From positions 193,501 through 257,500 of the forward strand of contig JACGZH010000007.1 in NCBI GenBank assembly GCA_014706385.1: DNA of 64,000 bases, written 5' to 3'. Below the pieces are notes generated by a model that worked only from the letters and a program-made list of their open reading frames with translations, was not told the DNA's origin and ran no database searches. Made by a program: the position numbers and the translations under genes. Each line of letters begins with the position of its first letter. Within the stretch, counting starts at the first letter, position 1. Of this stretch, positions 5,501-58,414 are shown piece by piece. This stretch comes from Phaffia rhodozyma (taxonomy: Eukaryota > Basidiomycota > Tremellomycetes > Cystofilobasidiales > Mrakiaceae).

Positions 5501-7674
5501 ACTGACATGTTTTCAACTTAATTTCAGTCTAACTTTCTTACCTTGAATGTGTATCTCTCTACGGCTGATCTACCTGCGGATCTTCGACCGTGAGTTGACT
5601 GGCTTTGGTTATGGTAAACAAAGGAGTCTTCCGATGCTGATACACTTGTTCGTGTTGCGACAGGTATGCCTCTTTATGGCAAGACTCGTTTTTCTCATTG
5701 CCTATCAAACGAGCTAACGGTTCCGAGTTGAGTCATGAGGATGTGATTAATCAACTTAATGAGTATGTCGACTTTTCTTCTATATCTCGAATCTTGTCAG
5801 CTTACTGTACTTGTGAATTTTGACATGCTATTTTTCAATTTAATTCATAAGTCAAACTGTTCAGTACTACACCGATTATGGGTGCGCTGGTGCTTTCCAG
5901 GATCTGCTACGAATTCAGATCAAAGTGGAGAAGCACCAGTATGGTTCGACTATCGCTTGGATTCGAGATCTTATCTGGGGCTCCACATTCGTCAAGGATC
6001 GATTAGAGGTCACCATCGCGAAGCTTGTTCAAGAATTGCCTCAGCAGAAGAGGGACGGAAGCTCGGTCGCGAGGAGTGTGTCGGAGAGGATGATCATGGA
6101 TGAGGGGAAGAGCACGAGTGTCGCCAATGGGTTGTTGAGGCAATTGGAGTTCTTACCCGAAGTAGCTACCAGACTGAAGGACGATCCTGAGAGTGTCATT
6201 AGGGATCTTGAGAAGTTCAGAGAAATCAGTAAGTCAACATTCCTCTTCTTTCTTCTCCCGTCTAACTGTGACGTCAGTAGTTCATGGGAACTGATAGTTC
6301 CTCTTTGGTCTTACGTATGTGACGTTGACACAGTCACTGCTCCTCGAAACTTGAGAGTAGCTGTCTCGGGAGACATCCTGAACCTCTCTGAGCCCAGGTC
6401 TAGCTGGCTCAAGAACTTTAAAGCTTTGCCTGTTCGTCGAATATATGCTTGCTACTTGTGCCAACGTAATCTGAATGCGAACGTTCTTACTTCCTCATTT
6501 TCAAACAGAAATCCGAATTAGGCGCTGTCCCTTGGTCCAAGGATGCTCTCTCTCCTCTTGGAAAGGCGCCTTCGAAATCAGTAATTACAGCTGCTTTTAT
6601 TCATCCTGCTTGTATTCATTTGCTCAACCCGTTAACCTGTTTTTTTTCCAATCATTCCACTTACTTTGTAGGCCGTCCTTGTCACATTGCCCAGTATCGA
6701 GGGCAGTTACTCCAATCACACCGCTAAGGGCGTCGTTGGATGGGATCACCCCGATCTACCGAGTTTGGAAGTGACGAAAGCAGTATTGAATGCTCTGGAA
6801 AGTTATCTTTGGAAGTATATCAGAGGTGCCGGGTTCGCCTACGGTTGTGGAGTAACGCTGTCGATTGAGTCCGGCACCGTTGGTTTTTATGTCTACCGAG
6901 TGAGTGGCTTCGTCTGTCTCTGCTTGATACAACGGCACTGGTCTTTCATCCTTTTTTCTTATCGTGCTCACAATTTTATTACTTTTGCTTACTCATTGGT
7001 ATATATTCAGTCTCCCGATGCATTCAAAGCTTTCGAGGAGGGTGCTCGTGTTATTCGAGGTCTAGCCGATGAGACGGTTCGACTCTCTCTTTTGTCTTTT
7101 TTTGCGCAGCTTCTCCTCAAACTAACCCGTTTCTTCCCATCTTTTTGGGGATGACTAGATCAAACTGGATTCGAACATCGTCGAAGCCGCAAAATCATCC
7201 CTTGTGTTCGCATACGCGCAAAAAGAGAAGTCTCTCTCATCAGCGTGTAGTCTAGCGTTCAACAACGAAGTCTTGAAGCGTTCTTCTTCAAGGGATCTTT
7301 TGAGTCGCATGCAGGTTCGTCCCAAAATTTGAAACCCGAGAGCGTTATCAGATGAGAAGCCTTTTTTGCGTCTCTTCATTTGAACTAACTTCATGTGTGT
7401 ATTCTCAAAGTCGGTGACCAAATCCGAGATTCTAGGAGCGCTTAGGAAATACATCTTGCCGATATTTGACCCAGCAAGCTCTGTTGTCGCTTGTACGTCT
7501 GCTCCTGGGAAAGCAGAAGAGATCGCAAACTCGTTCGAGACGTTCGGGTATGCTGTCGAACGAAGGGTTCTCTCCGGCCTAGGGGGGGATGATGAGGATA
7601 GTGGAAGCGAGAGCGGGAGTGATATGAGTTATAGTGATGAGAGCGTGAGTGGAAGCGAAAGCGAAAGCGAGTGA
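2573..7674 (+). CDS. SDD3: M16-family zinc metalloprotease, YOL098C/SDD3-like
   Basis: Large multi-exon gene. Exon 1 ends NYELG at a GTATGT donor. Later exons give KWRSTKTGLSVTWAG, GPIVNGTFT, PTEIFDD and TGRPHTLEHLIFLGSSSYPY, which carries the inverted zinc motif HxxEH (HTLEH). Then come LANKSFADGTNAWTDNDHT, GGEGFLKLLPVYIDHILYPT, and FVTEVHHVNEKGENAGVVYA with EMQARE, which supplies the third zinc-ligand region. This series is characteristic of the ~1000-residue M16C relatives of yeast YOL098C and not of Cym1 or insulinase. The C-terminus is an acidic Ser/Glu/Asp tail (DEDSGSESGSD...SESESE). Two in-frame ATGs exist: 2573 gives an Arg/Ser/hydroxylated leader (MLQYSLRNFKLQHTKPY...) resembling a mitochondrial presequence, and 2693 gives MSLHTQPTT. 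I report the longer form; which one is used is unknown. At least three introns use GTTCGT donors (3123, 5465, 7316). Confidence 0.85.
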
Positions 7675-8297: not shown

Positions 8298-8816
8298 TTA
8301 CTTGAGGTCGGCGGCGTGGTTCTGCCACTCAGGAGTCACGTCTCGCTTGAGGTCGGCGGCGTGGTTCTGCCACTCAGGAGTCACGTCTCGCTTGAGGTCG
8401 GCGGCGTGGTTCTGCCACTCAGGAGTCACGTCTCGCTTGAGGTCGGCGGCGTGGTTCTGCCACTCAGGAGTCACGTCTCGCTTGAGGTCGGCGGCGTGGT
8501 TCTGCCACTCAGGAGTCACGTCTCGCTTGAGGTCGGCGGCGTGGTTCTGCCACTCAGGAGTCACGTCTCGCTTGAGGTCGGCGGCGTGGTTCTGCCACTC
8601 AGGAGTCACGTCTCGCTTGAGGTCGGCGGCGTGGTTCTGCCACTATCGATATGACATCACGGACATTACAAGTCAGCTTGGTCATGTAACATTGCGCTTG
8701 AATATTCGTCGCGATCATGAACGATGACGTACCTCGGGATCAACAGAGGCGATAGGAGCGGCAGCGGCCAAGGAGGCAAGAGCAAGTGTAACAAGGGTGG
8801 CCTTAGGGAAGATCAT
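8298..8816 (-). CDS. secreted Lys-Arg repeat peptide precursor (KEP / alpha-factor-like architecture)
   Basis: Two exons: 8816-8733 and 8642-8298, separated by a 90-nt intron (GTACGT...ATAG). Exon 1 encodes 28 residues: a classic signal peptide (MIFPKATLVTLALASLAAAA) followed by PIASVDPE. Exon 2 continues in frame with WQNHAADLKR, then six copies of DVTPEWQNHAADLKR, then a last copy ending DLK before TAA. The total is 142 residues with eight copies of the core PEWQNHAADL, and seven KR sites. Kex2-type protease cleaves after KR, so processing would release near-identical 13-mers (DVTPEWQNHAADL after removal of KR). The layout is that of yeast alpha-factor precursors and of fungal Kex2-processed repeat proteins such as Ustilago Rep1, but the peptide sequence is not one I recognise and there is no CAAX tail as in basidiomycete mating pheromones. 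The 45-bp units look identical at DNA level. Function unknown. Confidence 0.85.
8301..8642 (-). repeat. 45-bp tandem repeat, about 7.6 copies, within the peptide precursor
   Basis: Unit of 45 bp (15 codons), repeated head to tail without visible differences. The length is a multiple of three, so copy-number changes keep the frame. There are no spacers between units, so this is a minisatellite and not a CRISPR array. The unit is stop-free in more than one frame on both strands, which creates long shadow frames. Confidence 0.95.
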
Positions 8817-9657
8817 GTTTTATAGTGTCAAAGAAGAGAGGAAAGGAAAAGAAAGGGTAAGATGGCTTTTGATAGGAAAGGTCGAAGGGACTTTGAAGGA
8901 CGTTAAGCGGGATAGAGAGCAAGAGTGAGTACAAGTGAGGACGATGCTTTATAGGATTGAGTTGACTGTCTTTGCCAGATGAATCCCATGTGCGTGCTTG
9001 CTTCCGTTCATAGGTGCGCACGCCGTGGGTACCTCTCCCTTTGTTTGGTATATTGCGTTTTTACGTTTGGGTCTCTCTCGGTATGCTCATTCTAGATGAG
9101 AACGATGACTGTTGTTATTGTTGTTGTTTCTCCGACCACCACCAGCACTCCAGAAACGTTTCGGGGCGGCGCTCACCGAACATAAAAACAAAGGGCGCTC
9201 AGTAGTGATCAGCGAGAGCAAGAGGACGTGGTTGCCACTTGACAGGGAATGCGGGATGAGGTACCACGAGAGGTACCCAGGGCAGAGGGGATATGCCGAA
9301 GCAGCGTGAGGACTGATGGGCGCATCGGGCTTTATTGGCCCTGCGTGGGTTTAGGACTGAATTCGCGGACTACCACCAAGTGCTGTCCTCTTCCATTTTA
9401 CTCAGCCTCCTTTTTTCGTTTCTTCAAAGTTCAAGAGCGTTTCAACAACGCTCTCTCGACTCGTTGTCTTTCCTTCTTTGTTTTGTCTCCCCTTGACGTG
9501 TTCGCTCTCAGTTTCACAAAACCATTGAGGCAGCCTCAACTGTAATCATGAGTTCTCGATCGTCCTCTCTTCCGAGAACAGTCCTTGAGTGGAGCGCAAT
9601 GCAATAAAAGGATGCACACGTATTCATCGCACACATACAAATATACAACCGCGGCCA

Positions 9658-9780
9658 ATGATGACGAAAGGCTCTTGGAAGACGGGAAGGATTAAACGGG
9701 CAAACAAGATGTTAGCGCAGAAAAGGGTTCTGCAAGAAAACGCACTAAGAGAGATCATCCGGCCCGATAAGCTTTTTTAG
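9658..9780 (+). CDS. possible small basic protein, unrecognised
   Basis: ATG-ATG start followed by 40 codons to TAG. The product is lysine/arginine-rich and could be helical (MTKGSWKTGRIKRANKM, then LAQKRVLQENALREIIRPDK). Composition is more protein-like than most random frames nearby, and the frame is open a further 23 codons upstream. I recognise no family. It could equally be chance; there is no intron or context support. Confidence 0.2.
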   Translation: MMTKGSWKTGRIKRANKMLAQKRVLQENALREIIRPDKLF

Positions 9781-11186
9781 TCTATAACCAAAAAAACATC
9801 AAAAGAAAAGTGGTGAGAGGAAGAAAACCGATAAATAAACAATGATTGCCTCATTCGTTACGTAATGTTCAAGTCAAATTCGATTAAGGCAAAATAGAAA
9901 AACGCATCTGTCGTCCGAACCGACCTGATGCGCCATCTTGAGAAAAGCATGTTGGGTGGCCGGTTGTTCATCTATCTGTACCGGTGGACGGCTTCTTGAA
10001 TTGATTCCGCCGCTCAGTTACCCTCCATACCTTCTCGCCTGTTTGATCATCGTGCCTTTGACTTGGTCATCGGTTCCTTAACTGACAACAAAGAGGCACG
10101 CACATACAAAAAAAGAAAACGCCACGTCTTTGAATCTTAGCATATATTTGACAACTGTATGACCCTTCAGTCCGCGCAACGGGAGTTACCTCCATCTCGT
10201 TCCTATTCCTCTCCGATCAGCCACAACCATCGGCCGGCCACTCGCCTCAGCCTCAGTTTGATCCAGTAAGTTGGTGAGATGCTAAATCACCGAAGGGGTA
10301 GAAACCATTAAGAAAACTCAAAAGACCAAAAAGACGAGTACAACCGTCTCCGTTTCGTCATGATGTCCCGGATAGAATGAATGGATGAATGTTAACCTAT
10401 CATTTCATTTTCTCAATCTTGTTCTCGATCGTGGTCTATTCCACTGAACATGCATCAATTTATCGGACAGAGCACGTTTTCATGATCTCTTTTGTGGGTC
10501 CAACCTTCCATATCACTGGGTCGATGCCAAGAAGACGGAAGAAACGAAAAAGCTAAAACAAGAGCACAAAGCGGGAACAGGAAAGAGACAAAAAGACAAG
10601 CAACGAAAAGAAGGCGGGACGGTAAGGAAGTAAAAAAAAAAAAAAAAAGGGAGGGAAACTTGTGACGCGTGCTCTCAACGATCTCAAGTACACGCTCATA
10701 ATGTTACATTTGCGACAGTTGGCTGTGTAACCAGCGTGACAGGAAAGCTCATTAAATCATAGAATCATAAAATCATAAAACCTAGGACATCTACATTCGT
10801 TGACAAAATATTTGGAGGGAAAAAAAGTCAGTGAAAAAGATCTTGGAATTTGGATAAACGCACAATAAAACAGATAGAAGCAGCAATAAATAGATGGGAA
10901 GTGGAGGAAGAGGGAACCAGGAGCTCGAGTTTCAGTCCCGAAAGATGGTTAACATGAGAACATCATCGTCGTGCAAGACTAGTTGTTTCATTGAGCGTCA
11001 TGGATAGACGTATGCATCATTCAAAGAGCCTTGGCTTCACCTCCGAAGAAAGATAGGTGTGTTCGTTTAAAGAATTGAAGACTCACTCTTCAGAAAGAGA
11101 TTGAAACAGTGAATGATGGAGGAATGAAGGGAACATTGTAGACTCCTTCAAAATGTGTTTTTGAGAATAAAACAAGTTTTACGTAT

Positions 11187-11371
11187 CACGTGACTGTGTC
11201 ACGCCGAAAGAGTCACGTGTGACGAGAAGTTAGGGTTAGAGGATTACTGTCAAGGATGTTGCCTGAGCATCATTCATTCTACAGGCTGACCCGTAGACCC
11301 TTCACTCTCATCTCTCCTTCCTCTCTGGCTTCCCACGTATCCTGTTTCTTATGTATCAAGTCTCCCACGTG
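11187..11371. promoter_or_regulatory. cluster of CACGTG boxes upstream of the phosphatase gene
   Basis: CACGTG at 11187-11192 (ATCACGTGAC), 11214-11219 (GTCACGTGTGAC) and 11366-11371 (CCCACGTGTC), with a half-similar GTCACG between the first two. A further CACGTG lies at 11710 inside the dispersed repeat. Such clustering suggests bHLH binding, but the sites are 470-650 bp from the ATG at 11838 and the target gene is not certain. Confidence 0.35.
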
Positions 11372-11493
11372 TCGTATGCGGTGTGCAATGTATTGCGCGC
11401 ACATTCCTTTCAGAGCTCATGATATCTAAGAACCATGTACAAGACGGGCGTCCTCGACCAGTTGTCCATAGATAGCTGAAGCCTGATTTCTTT

Positions 11494-11497
<4 letters not shown>

Positions 11498-11532
<35 letters not shown>
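11498..11532 (+). repeat. TTTCTAC heptamer tandem repeat
   Basis: About four to five consecutive copies of the heptamer TTTCTAC, ending in a degenerate TTCTAC. A pyrimidine-rich microsatellite in the upstream region of the phosphatase gene. Confidence 0.85.
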
Positions 11533-11706
11533 CCTTCCTCGTCCTTCTGTCCTCGTTACCTAGTGATTCTATCAATCCTGTTTCCCTTATTCCAAGCGCC
11601 TGAGCTTCTTTCTTTGAACCTCAGATTCCTTCTGTGGCTACTTCAATTGTAGCCCTCCTGTTATCAGCCCAGCTTTCGCTCTAACACCTGCCAATGGAGG
11701 TAAGGT

Positions 11707-11789
11707 AAACACGTGACCCATAGGATCTTGATGGTTTGTAGTCTGAGGGCACCCAAGTCCAAGAGGATACGTATCAACCATCATCGGTC
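11707..11789 (+). repeat. dispersed repeat, copy A
   Basis: First of four related sequences on the same strand. It starts with AACACGTGACCCA, then GGATCTTG, then GTCTGAGGGCACCCAAGTCC, and ends GTATCAACCATCATCGGT. It lies about 50 bp before the phosphatase start codon at 11838. The 3' hairpin half is truncated compared with copies C and D. Confidence 0.75.
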
Positions 11790-11837
11790 ATAGCTATCAC
11801 TGAACCTAGCACTCTATCTGTCCCGATAGAGACATAC

Positions 11838-13683
11838 ATGGCCGTTATGATCACAAGAATTCAATTCATTCTCTTTGTACTCACAGCCATAGTTATTCTC
11901 CTCATTCTCTCCCCTTCAACCTCGCTTCCGTCCAACAGTCCGGTTGCCAAAGAGCCGATAGCGGATGACTCTGACCCAATTTTCTTTAGCCAGATCATTG
12001 CGGTAGGAGATCTCCATGGTTCTCTACCTACCGCCAAGCGTGTATTTCGGATGGCAGGAGTCATAGATCGTCAGGATAGATGGATTCTCGGCAATGGTAC
12101 ACTCGTACAAACCGGAGACATCGTTGAGTGAGTTTCTTCTCTCTCGTTCGCCCTGATACTTGTGACAGAACACATGCCGTCCTGATACAAGGAGCTGTTC
12201 AGTCGAGGACACGACACCATCGAGCTCTATAGATTTATGGAGTCGCTCCGATCAGATGCTATCAAAAATGGCGGGCAATTCTTATCATTATTGGGCAATC
12301 ATGAAATCATGAACGCTCTGGGTTCGTCTTGTCTTCAAACTGTTCTAAGGTCCGGATCCTTATGTGACTTTCCTTCCATTGTGGTATGCAGGTGACTGGC
12401 GATACGTCACACATGATGACATCAAGACATACGACGGACTTCAGAACAGGCGACAGGCGCTTTCGCCACGCGGGGAGCTTGGAAAAATGTGGCTTTCGAA
12501 GTAAGAGCAAAATCCCTTCTCTTGCTCATTAGACTTCTTACTGATGTTTGGTTGAGTCTATAGCTACTCTTTGACAGCCAAAGTTCCTCTTCATCCGCTG
12601 AAACTCGGTTCAGAATCCTCATCTCCTTATCCTGTACGTTAACCAGTTGCCTCAATTGCTGATTTGGTGCTTTGTGGTCTGAGGGCACCCAAGTCCAAAA
12701 GTGCCATGTATCGACAACCATCAGTTGAGGTCACTCTCACTATGCCTACGGGGCAATACCAAATGCTAATGTTCTTCATGGCACAGGCCGTATCTTTCAT
12801 TCATGCCGGTCTCCCGACCTATGCACCGAACCTGACACCCTACCCTCAAGCGCTGAATGAGTTAGCCAAATCGTTTCTCTGGAAAGCATTGGATGAACAA
12901 GCGAACCCAAGCCCGCCCTACCCTTATTCCGGTTTACCCTCAACATTGACACCAGACGAAGCTCATCTTTGGGGTGGAGAGGGTGTTCGTACGTAGGCCC
13001 ATACCGGCTATCAAGAATCCCTAACTCAAGACTGATCGCAACTATTATTCCTTCCTGGTTTGACATTCACACCCCAAACAGTTTGGTACAGAGGATACGC
13101 TACGGATCCAGATGTAGAAGCCTGTCGGAATGCAAAGGAGGTCATGAGCCGTATCGGAGTCCGAAGGCTCGTCATGGGTCACACCCCGAATTTTGAGGTG
13201 TGTTTCTACTTTCTAAGACTATCGAGAGTATATCGATATGTATCTTGACTCTCCACCTTTGTTGTACAGGGTATGGTATCTCGTTGTGATGGAGCGATCC
13301 TTTTGATCGACACTGGAATATCTCCTGCGTACAGTCAGTATTTTCTCTTCTCGAAGCACATCTCACAGTCTTCTTACCATGCCTTTTTTCCAGGCGGCAC
13401 GCTCTCTGCACTTTCTATCAAAACAACCCTTCGTTCCCTGACTTCGCGTGACCAACCAAAGGAAGGCCTCAAGAGGAGGTATCCCCCACGAATTTCTCTT
13501 GACCACTCCCTCGAGACTGAGATTGATGTTGAGCGAACCCAACAGGATAAGTGGATTGAAACGGAATTAGTAGAAGCAATCGAGCTGCCGGATCGAACAT
13601 CTGCAGAGGGGAACGAACGAGTTGAGGGCAGACGAAGGGTTCTTTGGCATGGATCAAACAGACTGCAAGGAACGCTTGGTTGA
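11838..13683 (+). CDS. Shewanella-like protein phosphatase (calcineurin-type metallophosphoesterase)
   Basis: Membrane-anchored or secreted metallophosphatase of the PPP-like SLP group. The N-terminus is a hydrophobic segment (IQFILFVLTAIVILLIL, about residues 8-24). All metal-site motifs are present: VGDLHG, GDIVDRG (formed across the intron 12128-12202, acceptor TTCAG), LLGNHEI, FIHAG and MGHTP. SLP-type blocks follow GNHE: DWRYVTHDDIKTY, RRQALSPRGELGKMWLSNY and WYRGYA. The C-terminus (HGSNRLQGTLG) is low in recognisable signal. One intron (12634-12786, 153 nt) is about twice the usual length here because it contains a dispersed repeat. Another uses a GTTCGT donor (12322). SLPs occur in bacteria, plants and some fungi; substrate unknown. 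Confidence 0.85.
12664..12759 (+). repeat. dispersed repeat, copy B, inside an intron
   Basis: Shares GTGGTCTGAGGGCACCCAAG, CCATGTATCGACAACCATC and GTTGAGGTCACTCTCAC with the other copies, and a trailing CCTACGGGGCA like the CCTTAGGGCA of copy C. It sits wholly within the intron between SSSPYP and AVSFIHAG of the phosphatase. Confidence 0.75.
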
Positions 13684-14065: not shown

Positions 14066-14121
14066 TGTTTTGTTTTGTTTTGTTTTGTTTTGTTTTGTTT
14101 TGTTTTGTTTTGTTTTGTTTT
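14066..14121 (+). repeat. GTTTT pentanucleotide microsatellite
   Basis: About eleven consecutive copies of TGTTT/GTTTT. It generates a spurious open frame of repeated Phe-Cys-Phe-Val-Leu. It lies in the intergenic stretch between the phosphatase and the C2H2 gene. Confidence 0.95.
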
Positions 14122-14395
14122 ATTTCTTTGTCAATTTATGTTTTTTTCATGGACGATAGAGTCATCACTAATAGAATGTTTCAGGACATTGTGTCGAGTA
14201 CTCATCGTTTTTCTCTGTTCGTTCTCAGACTTGGTGGAACAGAGATGTGGACGCGTCGCGCAAAATGCTGCATATAGCCCTTCACCAGGAGAAGAACTAG
14301 GAGGCAAGGATGCTAGAGTTCGACACTGTTTTTAGTGAGGCTGAATTTGAGATTGCCATAACCGTTGAGGATGAGGTTGAGGCTGGCACAAATTG

Positions 14396-25183: not shown

Positions 25184-26770
25184 CTACAACTTGGATGAGC
25201 CAGCCGGTCGTTTAGGTCTGACGACACCTTCCTGAGTAGTCACGGCGACCAACTTTCCGTGTTCTGTAAAGATCTTTCCGTGCACCGTCGCTCGGCCGTC
25301 ACCCCCCACGATGGGTTCCATCAGGTGAAGCAGCCAGTTGCATGTATCGAAATCGTTACTGTTGATCCCATCGGATCGGTGAAAACGCCGTCGTCGTTGT
25401 CGTCATCATCATCATCAGCAGCAGCAGCAGTCATAGACAGAGCGCGGATTGAGAACAAGAAAAGGAAGGGGACGAAACTCGTAGAACCAAATGGTATGAT
25501 CGAGCGAGACGTTCATCCCAAGCTCATACTTTCCCTTCCCGGGCTCCAAGGAATTTGTGATCCCTAGCGGTCTATGGGCGGTTCCGATGAACAAGAAATC
25601 TGACAGATATGCTAGTACCGCCTTTTATTGATATCATTTTAAATACCCCAAACCCCCAACCGAGATGTTCCGAGATCGGTGTCGATCAGTCTAGACACGT
25701 CCTTCCTAGCGCGAAAATCGAAACGCAACAAGGGAAGAGAAAGGGAGAAAGCGCAACAGCAAGAAAGGAAGGACACACCTTCTGCATCCCACGATCCAGC
25801 GCACCGACCTCAATACCCTTCACCTTCAGCCAGAACGCCCGTTGGGGTCTCATCGATTCAGGGAGCGGGGCATCCATGATGGCTATCGCCGAGTCCCTCC
25901 TTTCCTGTTGGTGTCCGAAAGAGGAAGGCCAAAGGATGGCAAGAAAGGGTGGGCATTGAGAGACCGAGTTCCTCATGAATCAAGAGAAAGAGAAGAAGAA
26001 GAAGAAGAAGAAGAAGAAGAAGAAGAAGAAGAAGAAGAAGAAGAAAGAACACGGACGTTGACGACGTTCTGTAGAGTGACTCTGACGGCTGAAGGCCAGG
26101 AATGACTCTGATCCAAAAAGGTCTGCAGACGGTCCTCTCTGAGCACACAGTCTGACGGTCTCGGGACTGTTTCCGGCAGTTTCATCTAGTACCGGAAGAT
26201 ATCAGCGACGGCGTTGACTTGAGCGTACTGGGGCCAAACCAGCAGAAAGAGCAAGAACAAGAAGACGAGGACGACGAACCTGGAACGAAAGTGCGCCGTC
26301 TTCGGTCGATTTGAAACTACAGATCAGATAGAAGATCTTGACACCCTTCTGAGTGGCATAGACCGAGAACGTGGCGTACGATCTCCCCTGGCGGAGGAGA
26401 TCCGTGAAGAAGATGAGTGGGAGGGAAGAGGAGGCTGCTGCTAGGAAGTAGCTCTATCCGAAAGAGAAACCATCGGTTCTTCAGTAAGCCTACCGAAAGC
26501 CGATCTTCATCCGGTTCAAAAGCGAAAGACGAAGGGAAGCCAAGAGACGGAAAGATGACAAGGATCAAATGAGAGAAGAAGACACACATGCAGCGAGTGC
26601 AAGACAAACCCCTCTGGGGCTCGTTTTGTAGCTGCCAAGACGGCCTGAGCGATGACCTGGCCGCCAAAGACTCCTCTTGCGTTCTTTGGTTTCTCCAGTA
26701 TCCCGGGGAGCGAGGTAAACACGTTAACGTCTATCTCTTGTAGCTGGAGGGAATCTGTGATCAGCGGCAT
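25184..26770 (-). CDS. TES1: peroxisomal acyl-CoA thioesterase II (TesB/ACOT8/Tes1)
   Basis: Double-hotdog thioesterase that hydrolyses acyl-CoA in peroxisomes. Exons read leftward from ATG 26770: MPLITDSLQLQEIDVNVFTS, LPGILEKPKNARGVFGGQVI, AQAVLAATKRAPEGFVLHSL, then after an intron SYFLAAASSSLPLIFFTDLL, RQGRSYATFSVYATQKGVKI, FKSTEDGALSFQ, MKLPETVPRPSDCVLREDRL, ESMRPQRAFWLKVKGIEV, AVLAYLSDFLFIGTAHRPLG, ELGMNVSLDHTIWFYD, NDFDTCNWLLHLMEPIVGGD, GRATVHGKIFTEHGKLVAVT, TQEGVVRPKRP. It ends GSSKL, a canonical PTS1 peroxisomal signal. One intron donor is GTTCGT (26274-26279, minus) and another appears to be GTTTCG. A GAA-type microsatellite lies in an intron. The start could be further upstream, since the frame stays open. 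Confidence 0.88.
25987..26045 (+). repeat. (GAA)n microsatellite in a thioesterase intron
   Basis: About 18 consecutive GAA/AAG units. On the coding (minus) strand it is a pyrimidine run (TTC)n inside an intron, where it could act as an extended polypyrimidine tract. Produces spurious poly-Glu, poly-Ser and poly-Leu frames. Confidence 0.9.
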
Positions 26771-56327: not shown

Positions 56328-58414
56328 ATGGCTGATAACCGTATGTACTGCTCTTTGTTGCTAGCTGTTGAAAAACGGAATGCTCTCGAGCCGGGGTCTC
56401 TTTTCTCGAGTCCCATACTCGATCGGAGATTTCGGGAATGTAAGATGACTCTCTGTTGCTTCACTGACTTCTTTTTTTACCATTCTATCTTTTTTTTTCC
56501 TTCTCTCTTCGTCGACTTCTTCCGTTTTCCTTGGTATAATCATAACTATCTCTCTGTGATTCCTGTTATATTCAGTCGTAGCCAAGTCCGGGGTCACCGT
56601 CGTGTAGGTTCCTCTCGGTTATGGGAGTCCCTCTTTCTCTCACTGCCAAGCTAATATCTTTCATCTATACAGTCTTGGATCCCAGTGGGGAGACGAGGGC
56701 AAAGGTAAACTCGTCGATATTCTCGCCCACCATGCCGACGTGACCGCTCGATGCGCCGGAGGAAACAATGCCGGGCACACCATTGTCGTCGGCAAGGGAG
56801 AGACTAAGAAGAAGTACGACTTCCACTTGCTTCCCAGTGGGCTTATGAACCCGGATGCCCAGGCTTTGATCGGAAGCGGAGTCGTCGTTCACGTTCCCAG
56901 CTTGTTCGAGGAGCTTGAGAGCTTGGAGAAGAAGGGTTCGTTACATCTGTTTGTCGATCGCGGACATTTTAGAAAGATGAGAACTGATAGAAACAATTGT
57001 AATGACACCATCTGGGCTGAGAATAGGCCTTGACTGCGCTGGTCGGCTTTTCGTCTCTGACCGAGCCCACCTCGTCTTTGACTTCCACCAAATCGTTGAC
57101 GGCCTCAAAGAGGTCGAGCTCGGTGGATCCTCGTTCGTTTGCTTGTCTCTTCTTGAGAGTTATCTATTGGAACTTACCATCTGGTCGACTTTTGTTCCGC
57201 ATACAGCATCGGAACTACCAAGCGAGGAATTGGGCCAGCTTACTCTTCCAAGGCCTCTCGATCGGGTCTTCGAGTGCATCACTTGTACGACCATGAGGTC
57301 TTCGCTACCAAGTTCCGAAAGCTCGTCGAGGGCCGAATCAAGCGATACGGCCACTTTGAGTACGATACCGAGGCTGAGATTGAGAGATATAAGGTCGGTT
57401 TTGTTTTCGTGTATATGTTTCTTCTGTCCTTTCAGTTTTATGGCCCAAGTTTGACATCTCTTTGTCTTTCTCTTCCTTTTTTTACGCGCGGTCCTCTGGG
57501 TCTTACTTCACCTAGGTCTTTGCCGCTCGACTGCGACCGATGATCGTTGATGGAGTGTCTTACCTCCACAAGGCAATTACTACCCCCAAGCGAGTCCTCG
57601 TTGAGGGTGCCAACGCGTTGATGCTCGACCTCGACTACGGAACCTACCCTTACGTCACTTCATCCTCTACCGCTATCGGTGGAGTCTGCACTGGATTGGG
57701 TATCCCTCCCAAGATGATTGGCAAGGTCATTGGTGTCGTCAAGGCCTACACCACCAGAGTTGGTGGTGGACCTTTCCCTACGGAGCAGTTGAACGTCAGT
57801 AACTTGTGTTTGTGTGTTTGTTTGAAGCATTTGACAAAGGCTGATGTCTTGCATTGCTCATGTGTGTTGCGCTCGAATCCTTTACTATCTCGACAGTCCA
57901 TTGGAGAGACCATGCAGGAGGTCGGTGCCGAGTGGGGTGTTACCACCGGTCGACGACGACGATGTGGTTGGTTGGATCTCGTTGTGCTTCGATTCTCGAA
58001 CCAGATCAACGGTTATGATACCTTGAACTTGACCAAGCTCGATGTTCTTGACGGACTCGACGAGATCAAGATTGGTGTCGCTTATGAGGTTGACGGAAAG
58101 GAGCTCGACGGGTTCCCGGCCGATCTCGAGTACTTGGCCAAGGTCGAGGTCAAGTACAAGACTTTCCCCGGATGGAAGTCGGATATCTCGAGCGTCCAGA
58201 AGTATGAGGATCTCCCTGAGAACTGCAAGACCTACATCGAGTTCATCGAGTCTTACCTCGGTGTGCCTGTAGAGTGGATCGGAAACGGCCCTGCCCGAGA
58301 GTCGATGTGAGTTGTCTTTTCTTCTCTTGTCTTGCCTCCTCATCTATTGGAGAATGACTGACCCTGAGTTGTTTGGGCGATTGCATTAACAGGATCCTCA
58401 AGGAGGTCAAGTAA
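56328..58414 (+). CDS. ADE12: adenylosuccinate synthetase
   Basis: Catalyses IMP + Asp + GTP to adenylosuccinate in AMP synthesis. Exon 1 is 13 nt (MADN plus one base). After it: VAKSGVTVV, then across a second intron [20 protein letters not shown] (the GDEGKGK GTP/IMP loop), [180 protein letters not shown] and [20 protein letters not shown]. It ends K, TAA at 58412-58414, with the last six codons on a separate exon. Complete. Codon choice looks more uniform than in neighbours (frequent CTC, GTC, AAG), consistent with high expression. GTTCGT donors at 56936 and 57133. Confidence 0.96.

Follow-up and report, generated by a model that had tools for sequence, protein, structure and literature searches.

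A Phaffia rhodozyma gene predicted to encode a KEX2-processed repeat protein with eight copies of a short acidic peptide

A gene on the minus strand of a 64,000-nucleotide stretch of DNA (hereafter the window) from Phaffia rhodozyma (Cystofilobasidiales, Tremellomycetes) encodes, at positions 8816..8298, a 142-aa precursor in which a signal-like start is followed by eight copies of WQNHAADL. Judged by its predicted architecture, this precursor is a KEX2-processed repeat protein (KEP) and falls in a fungal class that has already been named (PMC6339444, PMC7329392). The best explanation, which we consider rather probable, is that this secreted KEP is processed to a linear acidic peptide acting as an extracellular signal outside mating. 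An earlier note on the same DNA had described a secreted Kex2-processed repeat precursor of alpha-factor-like architecture in a basidiomycete, with a signal-like start, one intron and eight KR-separated cores at 8298..8816, and the sequence anatomy bears this description out.

Anatomy and coding evidence of the precursor gene

The coding sequence comprises 429 nt in two exons, with the TAA stop counted in exon 2, and starts with an ATG at 8816. The precursor can be laid out as MIFPKATLVTLALASLAAA-APIASVDPE-WQNHAADLKR-(DVTPEWQNHAADLKR)x6-DVTPEWQNHAADLK-stop. Exon 1 (8733..8816, minus strand, 28 codons) encodes the signal-like MIFPKATLVTLALASLAAA, the spacer APIASVDP and the Glu of copy 1, and is followed by a phase 0 intron of 90 nt (8643..8732, minus strand; GTACGT...CTGAC...ATAG) positioned exactly between Glu and Trp of that copy. 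Exon 2 (8298..8642, minus strand) consists of seven full 45-nt units and a final 30-nt unit with the stop, and carries the eight WQNHAADL copies and seven KR pairs. Copy 1, which the intron splits, has SVDP in front instead of DVTP. KR follows seven of the copies, and the last is followed by Lys and the stop, in line with the previous remark that the final copy lacks Arg. Upstream of the gene (8817..8960, minus strand), likeness to consensus alone, judged by eye, pointed to a pyrimidine-rich leader and, ~135 nt ahead of the ATG, a TATA-like CCTATAAAGC.

The signal-like start passes a rule-based signal test, the same rules being passed by 30 of the 794 ATG frames of at least 28 codons in the window. 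Residues 17, 18 and 19 are among those after which these rules permit cleavage; residue 19 was our choice. The intron model, as read from the DNA, is well supported: three GT donors (GT sites in the first 160 nt, introns of at least 45 nt) leave the eight WQNHAADL copies all in frame, and of these only the donor at 8732 rebuilds the PEW junction of the other seven copies. Splicing at this site restores PE directly ahead of WQNHAADL, which also upholds the 90-nt intron proposed earlier, and the A of a branch-point-like CTGAC lies at a distance of 30 nt from the acceptor.

TRF described the array as a 45-nt unit present in 7.6 copies with 100% matches, and the seven full units are identical at every base, synonymous sites included. 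Since identical units leave any stop-free frame open, the open frame across the array is no evidence by itself. Three of the six array frames contain stops; using the neighbouring exons (667 codons) as codon-usage reference, the sense frame scored +0.83 bits per codon, compared to -0.66 and -0.28 for the two other open frames. The GC3 of the array was 0.82. The coding evidence is therefore made up of the ATG start, the signal-like sequence, the splice junction and the codon usage. The same features bear on a rival explanation, in which a recently expanded tandem repeat sits in a decaying or incidental gene without a working peptide product. The DNA identity of the units does imply recent expansion or homogenisation, and the protein search described below found no relatives of the precursor; with the start intact, the splice junction restoring the register, the sense-frame codon usage and a stop directly after the last core, this explanation appears improbable.

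A paralogue search for the precursor across the genome (19.77 Mb searched; window GC 44–52%) returned the gene itself alone, in two matches, unrelated KEPs lying outside the reach of such a search. For comparison, P. rhodozyma has been reported to have a genome of 18.9–19.5 Mb with ~47% GC (PMC5103461). A pattern match on C2, where PEWQNH followed by IPPV occurs once, was treated as chance. Elsewhere in the genome, two lycopene cyclase domain matches (G000:C1:285888-286687), one of them over the cut-off, were observed, as expected for a carotenoid-making yeast.

Class membership and known relatives

Three features used to recognise KEPs were present: a secretion signal (rule-based), at least three repeats bounded by KR, RR or KK (here eight copies and seven KR), and Kex2 in the genome. 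A survey of fungi counted 7878 KEPs in 1345 of 1461 strains, with an average of 1.00 per strain in Tremellomycetes (PMC7329392), and basidiomycete KEPs with a STE13 signature have been reported (PMC6339444). Furthermore, KEP peptides have been measured in basidiomycetes; MSGVAADW and its forms from Pleurotus and SGTGEASAADW from Lentinula have -AADW in common (PMC9769878). The peptide had been put forward as undescribed, and no match for it was indeed found, but the class had already been named, surveyed and studied at the peptide level in the articles cited here.

When the full precursor was compared to 5.8 billion proteins, as the earlier note had proposed, 31 candidates were returned, none at E<=10; the search was confined to candidates of ~78–248 aa, so that a longer or misjoined annotation would escape it. 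As the database includes at least one P. rhodozyma protein (P0001) as well as mushroom KEPs, the precursor gene has probably gone unannotated in the protein deposits searched, or has been annotated there at a different length. Four sub-threshold Pfam matches on the precursor concerned unrelated families (best E 0.022) and were ignored. The literature search found no paper with WQNHAADL and, among the titles listed, none on this gene, and covered the KEP surveys apart from their supplementary tables, which could list it.

A query combining the measured -AADW peptides with the Phaffia unit drew 4072 candidates, four of which reached E<=10. The best was P0121 from P. pulmonarius (E 1.1e-9), with EA and EP-EA spacers ahead of MSGVAADW, followed by P0122 from L. 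edodes (E 4.6e-8), with SGTNEGSAADW and no STE13 spacer, and by P0123, a protein of JGI source (E 2.5e-6). The fourth, P0124 (E 0.61), also of JGI source, is KEP-like, an alpha-factor-like precursor with EAEP-type spacers and FGNNW-like cores. Dipeptide spacers occur in P. pulmonarius P0121 and in KEP 1091723 of Pleurotus ostreatus (MSGVAADW, SGVAADW, LSGVAADW), and -AADW peptides are likewise encoded by Lentinula edodes KEP 2599 (SGTGEASAADW) and P0122 (PMC9769878). The Phaffia precursor resembles these mushroom proteins in having a signal peptide, repeats set between dibasic sites, short linear peptides of acidic character and, ahead of the dibasic site, AAD followed by a hydrophobic residue. 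It differs from them in the C-terminal Leu in place of Trp, in the Trp near the N-terminus and in the spacer DVTP with its X-Val, and no whole-precursor homology was detectable between the Tremellomycete protein and those of the Agaricomycetes. The defining AADW before the dibasic site reads AADL in Phaffia, and the shared AAD, three residues spotted after the fact, is a lead, not proof of kinship.

Two other groups of secreted peptides offer points of comparison. S. cerevisiae MF-alpha 1 encodes a signal sequence, a dipeptide spacer, KR and a repeated core that yields a linear peptide. Ascomycete alpha-factor precursors in general share these features with the Phaffia precursor, as also set out in PMC6339444, whereas the Phaffia protein gives no MF_alpha match, its genome gives no STE2 match (with a silent control), and mating in this species proceeds via MFA/STE3. 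Qsp1 of Cryptococcus neoformans is, like the predicted Phaffia product, a secreted Tremellomycete peptide. It is regarded as an unrelated, non-repeated peptide. Import of Qsp1 by Opt1 provides a model of a non-GPCR peptide signal (PMC7537855); genes of the OPT family also occur in P. rhodozyma, with 34 exon-level matches, and their presence is no evidence for uptake of the Phaffia peptide.

Predicted processing and nature of the peptides

The earlier note had suggested looking for homologues of Kex2, Kex1 and Ste13, and the genome encodes a kexin, a Kex1-like carboxypeptidase and a DPP IV-like peptidase as a candidate for the Ste13 part. A kexin with a P domain is encoded on C8, its catalytic part matching the solved kexin at E 1.4e-89 and furin at 1.1e-66. 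Serine carboxypeptidases (S10) gave matches at four places, two of which (C8 and C1) were compared with solved structures: the piece at C8:1.24 Mb matched KEX1 (5.2e-13) better than carboxypeptidase Y (1.8e-9), and the C1 gene piece matched carboxypeptidase Y only. One DPP IV-like gene was located at C8:602 kb; DPPIV_N was recognised in three scanned pieces of it, followed by Peptidase_S9, and this gene may supply the dipeptidyl aminopeptidase for the spacers. After entry into the ER, kexin would thus cut behind each KR, and the Kex1-like carboxypeptidase would take Lys and Arg off the C-termini, including the lone Lys of the last copy. A DPP IV-type dipeptidyl aminopeptidase may then remove DV-TP from copies 2–8 and AP-IA-SV-DP from copy 1, leaving EWQNHAADL eight times; if untrimmed, the main product would be DVTPEWQNHAADL. 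The 15 residues previously given for the eight-copy peptide correspond to the repeat length including KR. The Kex2/Kex1 product would have 13 residues, in keeping with the size of about 13 given before for the released peptides, with the trimmed 9-mer EWQNHAADL as a further candidate besides DVTPEWQNHAADL.

If the signal is cut between LAAA and APIASVDP, the spacers are APIASVDP ahead of copy 1 and DVTP ahead of copies 2–8. Given this cut after residue 19, both are even in length and both end in X-Pro, so that stepwise removal of dipeptides could turn each copy into EWQNHAADL; a signal cut after residue 18 would make the first spacer odd in length and count against dipeptide trimming. SVDP and DVTP differ in both X residues, while Val and Pro are kept through synonymous codon changes (GTT/GTG, CCC/CCT). 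By our own arithmetic, two random changes among four spacer residues would both land on X places with a 1-in-6 chance. With the signal cut after residue 19, three of the four dipeptides of copy 1 (AP-IA-SV-DP) conform to the XA/XP signature of STE13; in DV-TP one of the two fits, and not the one adjacent to KR. Full trimming is accordingly uncertain, as X-Val, the first step in copies 2–8, lies outside the published signature.

The predicted products of 9, 11 and 13 residues are acidic and hydrophilic, with a charge of -2 to -3 (His excluded) and GRAVY values of -0.95 to -1.19; for the 17-mer that copy 1 would give without trimming, the GRAVY is -0.35. The computed [M+2H]2+ values are 542.246 for EWQNHAADL, 641.297 for TPEWQNHAADL, 748.344 for DVTPEWQNHAADL and 917.442 for APIASVDPEWQNHAADL.

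These properties speak to what the peptides might do. In the main rival explanation the peptides act on other organisms, in an antimicrobial or competitive role, instead of on the producer. Antimicrobial peptides are typically cationic and amphipathic, and the acidic, hydrophilic character of the 9–13-residue products stands against this role. A part in biotic interaction has on the other hand been favoured for KEP peptides, as knockouts showed no phenotype in axenic culture (PMC9769878), and we keep action on other organisms as a possible, clearly minority explanation. The predicted products might alternatively be structural or surface peptides resembling the repellent Rep1 of Ustilago maydis, which forms fibrils on the cell surface. 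We think this unlikely, given the hydrophilic composition and the 9–13 residues of the Phaffia units; Rep1 peptides are reportedly longer and surface-active. In its favour, Rep1 is a basidiomycete KEP without a STE13 signature (PMC6339444), and the signature in Phaffia is only partial. The suggestion of an antimicrobial or repellent-like peptide is not the one we favour.

Ustiloxin and dikaritin precursors share the KEP architecture with the Phaffia precursor (PMC7329392), and the peptide could in principle be a cyclised RiPP of that type, which we find scarcely credible. The Phaffia core contains no Tyr, and UstYa/DUF3328 gave no match in the genome, nor in any control genome. The window has 78 ORFs of at least 120 aa, of which 30, none of them within the nearest upstream stretch (8817–13248), were scanned against Pfam; 15 had a family at E<=0.01 and nine exceeded the curated cut-off, namely elongation factor G-like (two ORFs), DnaJ, coatomer alpha (two), RICTOR-like, MCM5 (two) and adenylosuccinate synthetase. 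The Pfam-named neighbours thus look like housekeeping genes, and neither a tailoring gene, UstYa included, nor a cluster was recognised among the ORFs scanned. Taken together, the acidic, hydrophilic peptides, the lack of a UstYa match (with its silent control) and the housekeeping-like scanned neighbours make a plain linear peptide likelier than a repellent, a cationic antimicrobial or a RiPP with a cyclised core.

Several further features of the window were recorded. A probable neighbouring convergent gene (6672..7674, plus strand; the last exon to 7674 is a guess) weakly matches the C-terminus of a presequence protease (E 5.5e-4; 20 bits, against a Pfam cut-off of 27). RGG/GRGG-rich coding repeats at 670–1070 on the minus strand, apparently in two exons and overlapping TRF arrays at 672–753 and 930–1068, probably belong to an RGG-box RNA-binding protein. 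Adenylosuccinate synthetase exon parts of 91 and 137 residues (57516–58307) flank an intron and are both letter-identical to P. rhodozyma P0001. The clean microsatellites (TGTTT)12 at 14066–14125 and (AGA)18 at 25991–26045 are possible strain markers, and Rfam gave nothing at gathering scores within the window.

Mating genes and a proposed role outside mating

The alpha-factor-like architecture of the precursor, with its signal, spacers, KR and repeats, raises the possibility of an alpha-type mating pheromone. P. rhodozyma already possesses two STE3 genes, seen on C9 as five exon-level matches grouped at two places. A short ORF with a CVIA end adjoins each of them, and ~5 kb separates the two sets. 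The two ORFs, found by a CAAX filter and taken as lipopeptide pheromone precursors, have 41 aa (L015:6018-6143, plus strand) and 43 aa (L016:1923-2054, minus strand). The filter was loose and passed five ORFs in the P/R region; one of the others is a longer form of the first CVIA ORF, and those ending in CSIA and CSSH were set aside. The arrangement is as published for the P/R locus of this species (PMC4915694, PMC5103461), and two published primers flank both pheromone genes with zero mismatches (PMC5103461). Double mutants with one reciprocal Mfa/Ste3 pair left have been reported to sporulate at normal levels (PMC4915694). The repeat precursor itself has no MF_alpha Pfam match and no CAAX box, its end reading ...AADLK, in agreement with what had been noted before. 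The proposed search for a Ste2-type receptor gave no match in the genome, with the positive control equally silent; STE3 was found by the same method. Because two MFA/STE3 pairs are present and one has sufficed for sporulation in published work, the precursor is probably not a sexual pheromone, and we regard an alpha-type mating function as very improbable.

A secreted linear alpha-factor-like peptide, resembling those of the mushroom -AADW KEPs and used outside mating, is therefore the best reading of the gene, and an extracellular non-mating signal is judged most likely. With less certainty than its processing, such a peptide would serve communication among the yeast's own cells, or with neighbours. 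Knockouts of six C. cinerea KEPs were reported to have no apparent phenotype (PMC9769878), and the role of alpha-pheromone-like precursors in basidiomycetes that mate without them was left open by Le Marquer et al. (PMC6339444) and Vogt et al. (PMC9769878). P. rhodozyma is homothallic, gene deletions have been published for it, and its two MFA/STE3 pairs are known (PMC4915694). This tractability, together with the single gene returned by the paralogue search, would offer a single-gene setting for the role of such precursors. KEP surveys that start from annotation may have overlooked the gene, since the protein deposits searched seem to lack it or to give it a different length. More speculatively, and we hold this to be doubtful, basidiomycetes may retain an ancient alpha-factor-like signalling beside their lipopeptide pheromones, in which linear -AAD-[W/L] peptides are made by Kex2, Kex1 and a dipeptidyl aminopeptidase and act through a receptor or transporter. 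If so, the Phaffia gene would be a member of this system in a genetically tractable Tremellomycete yeast.
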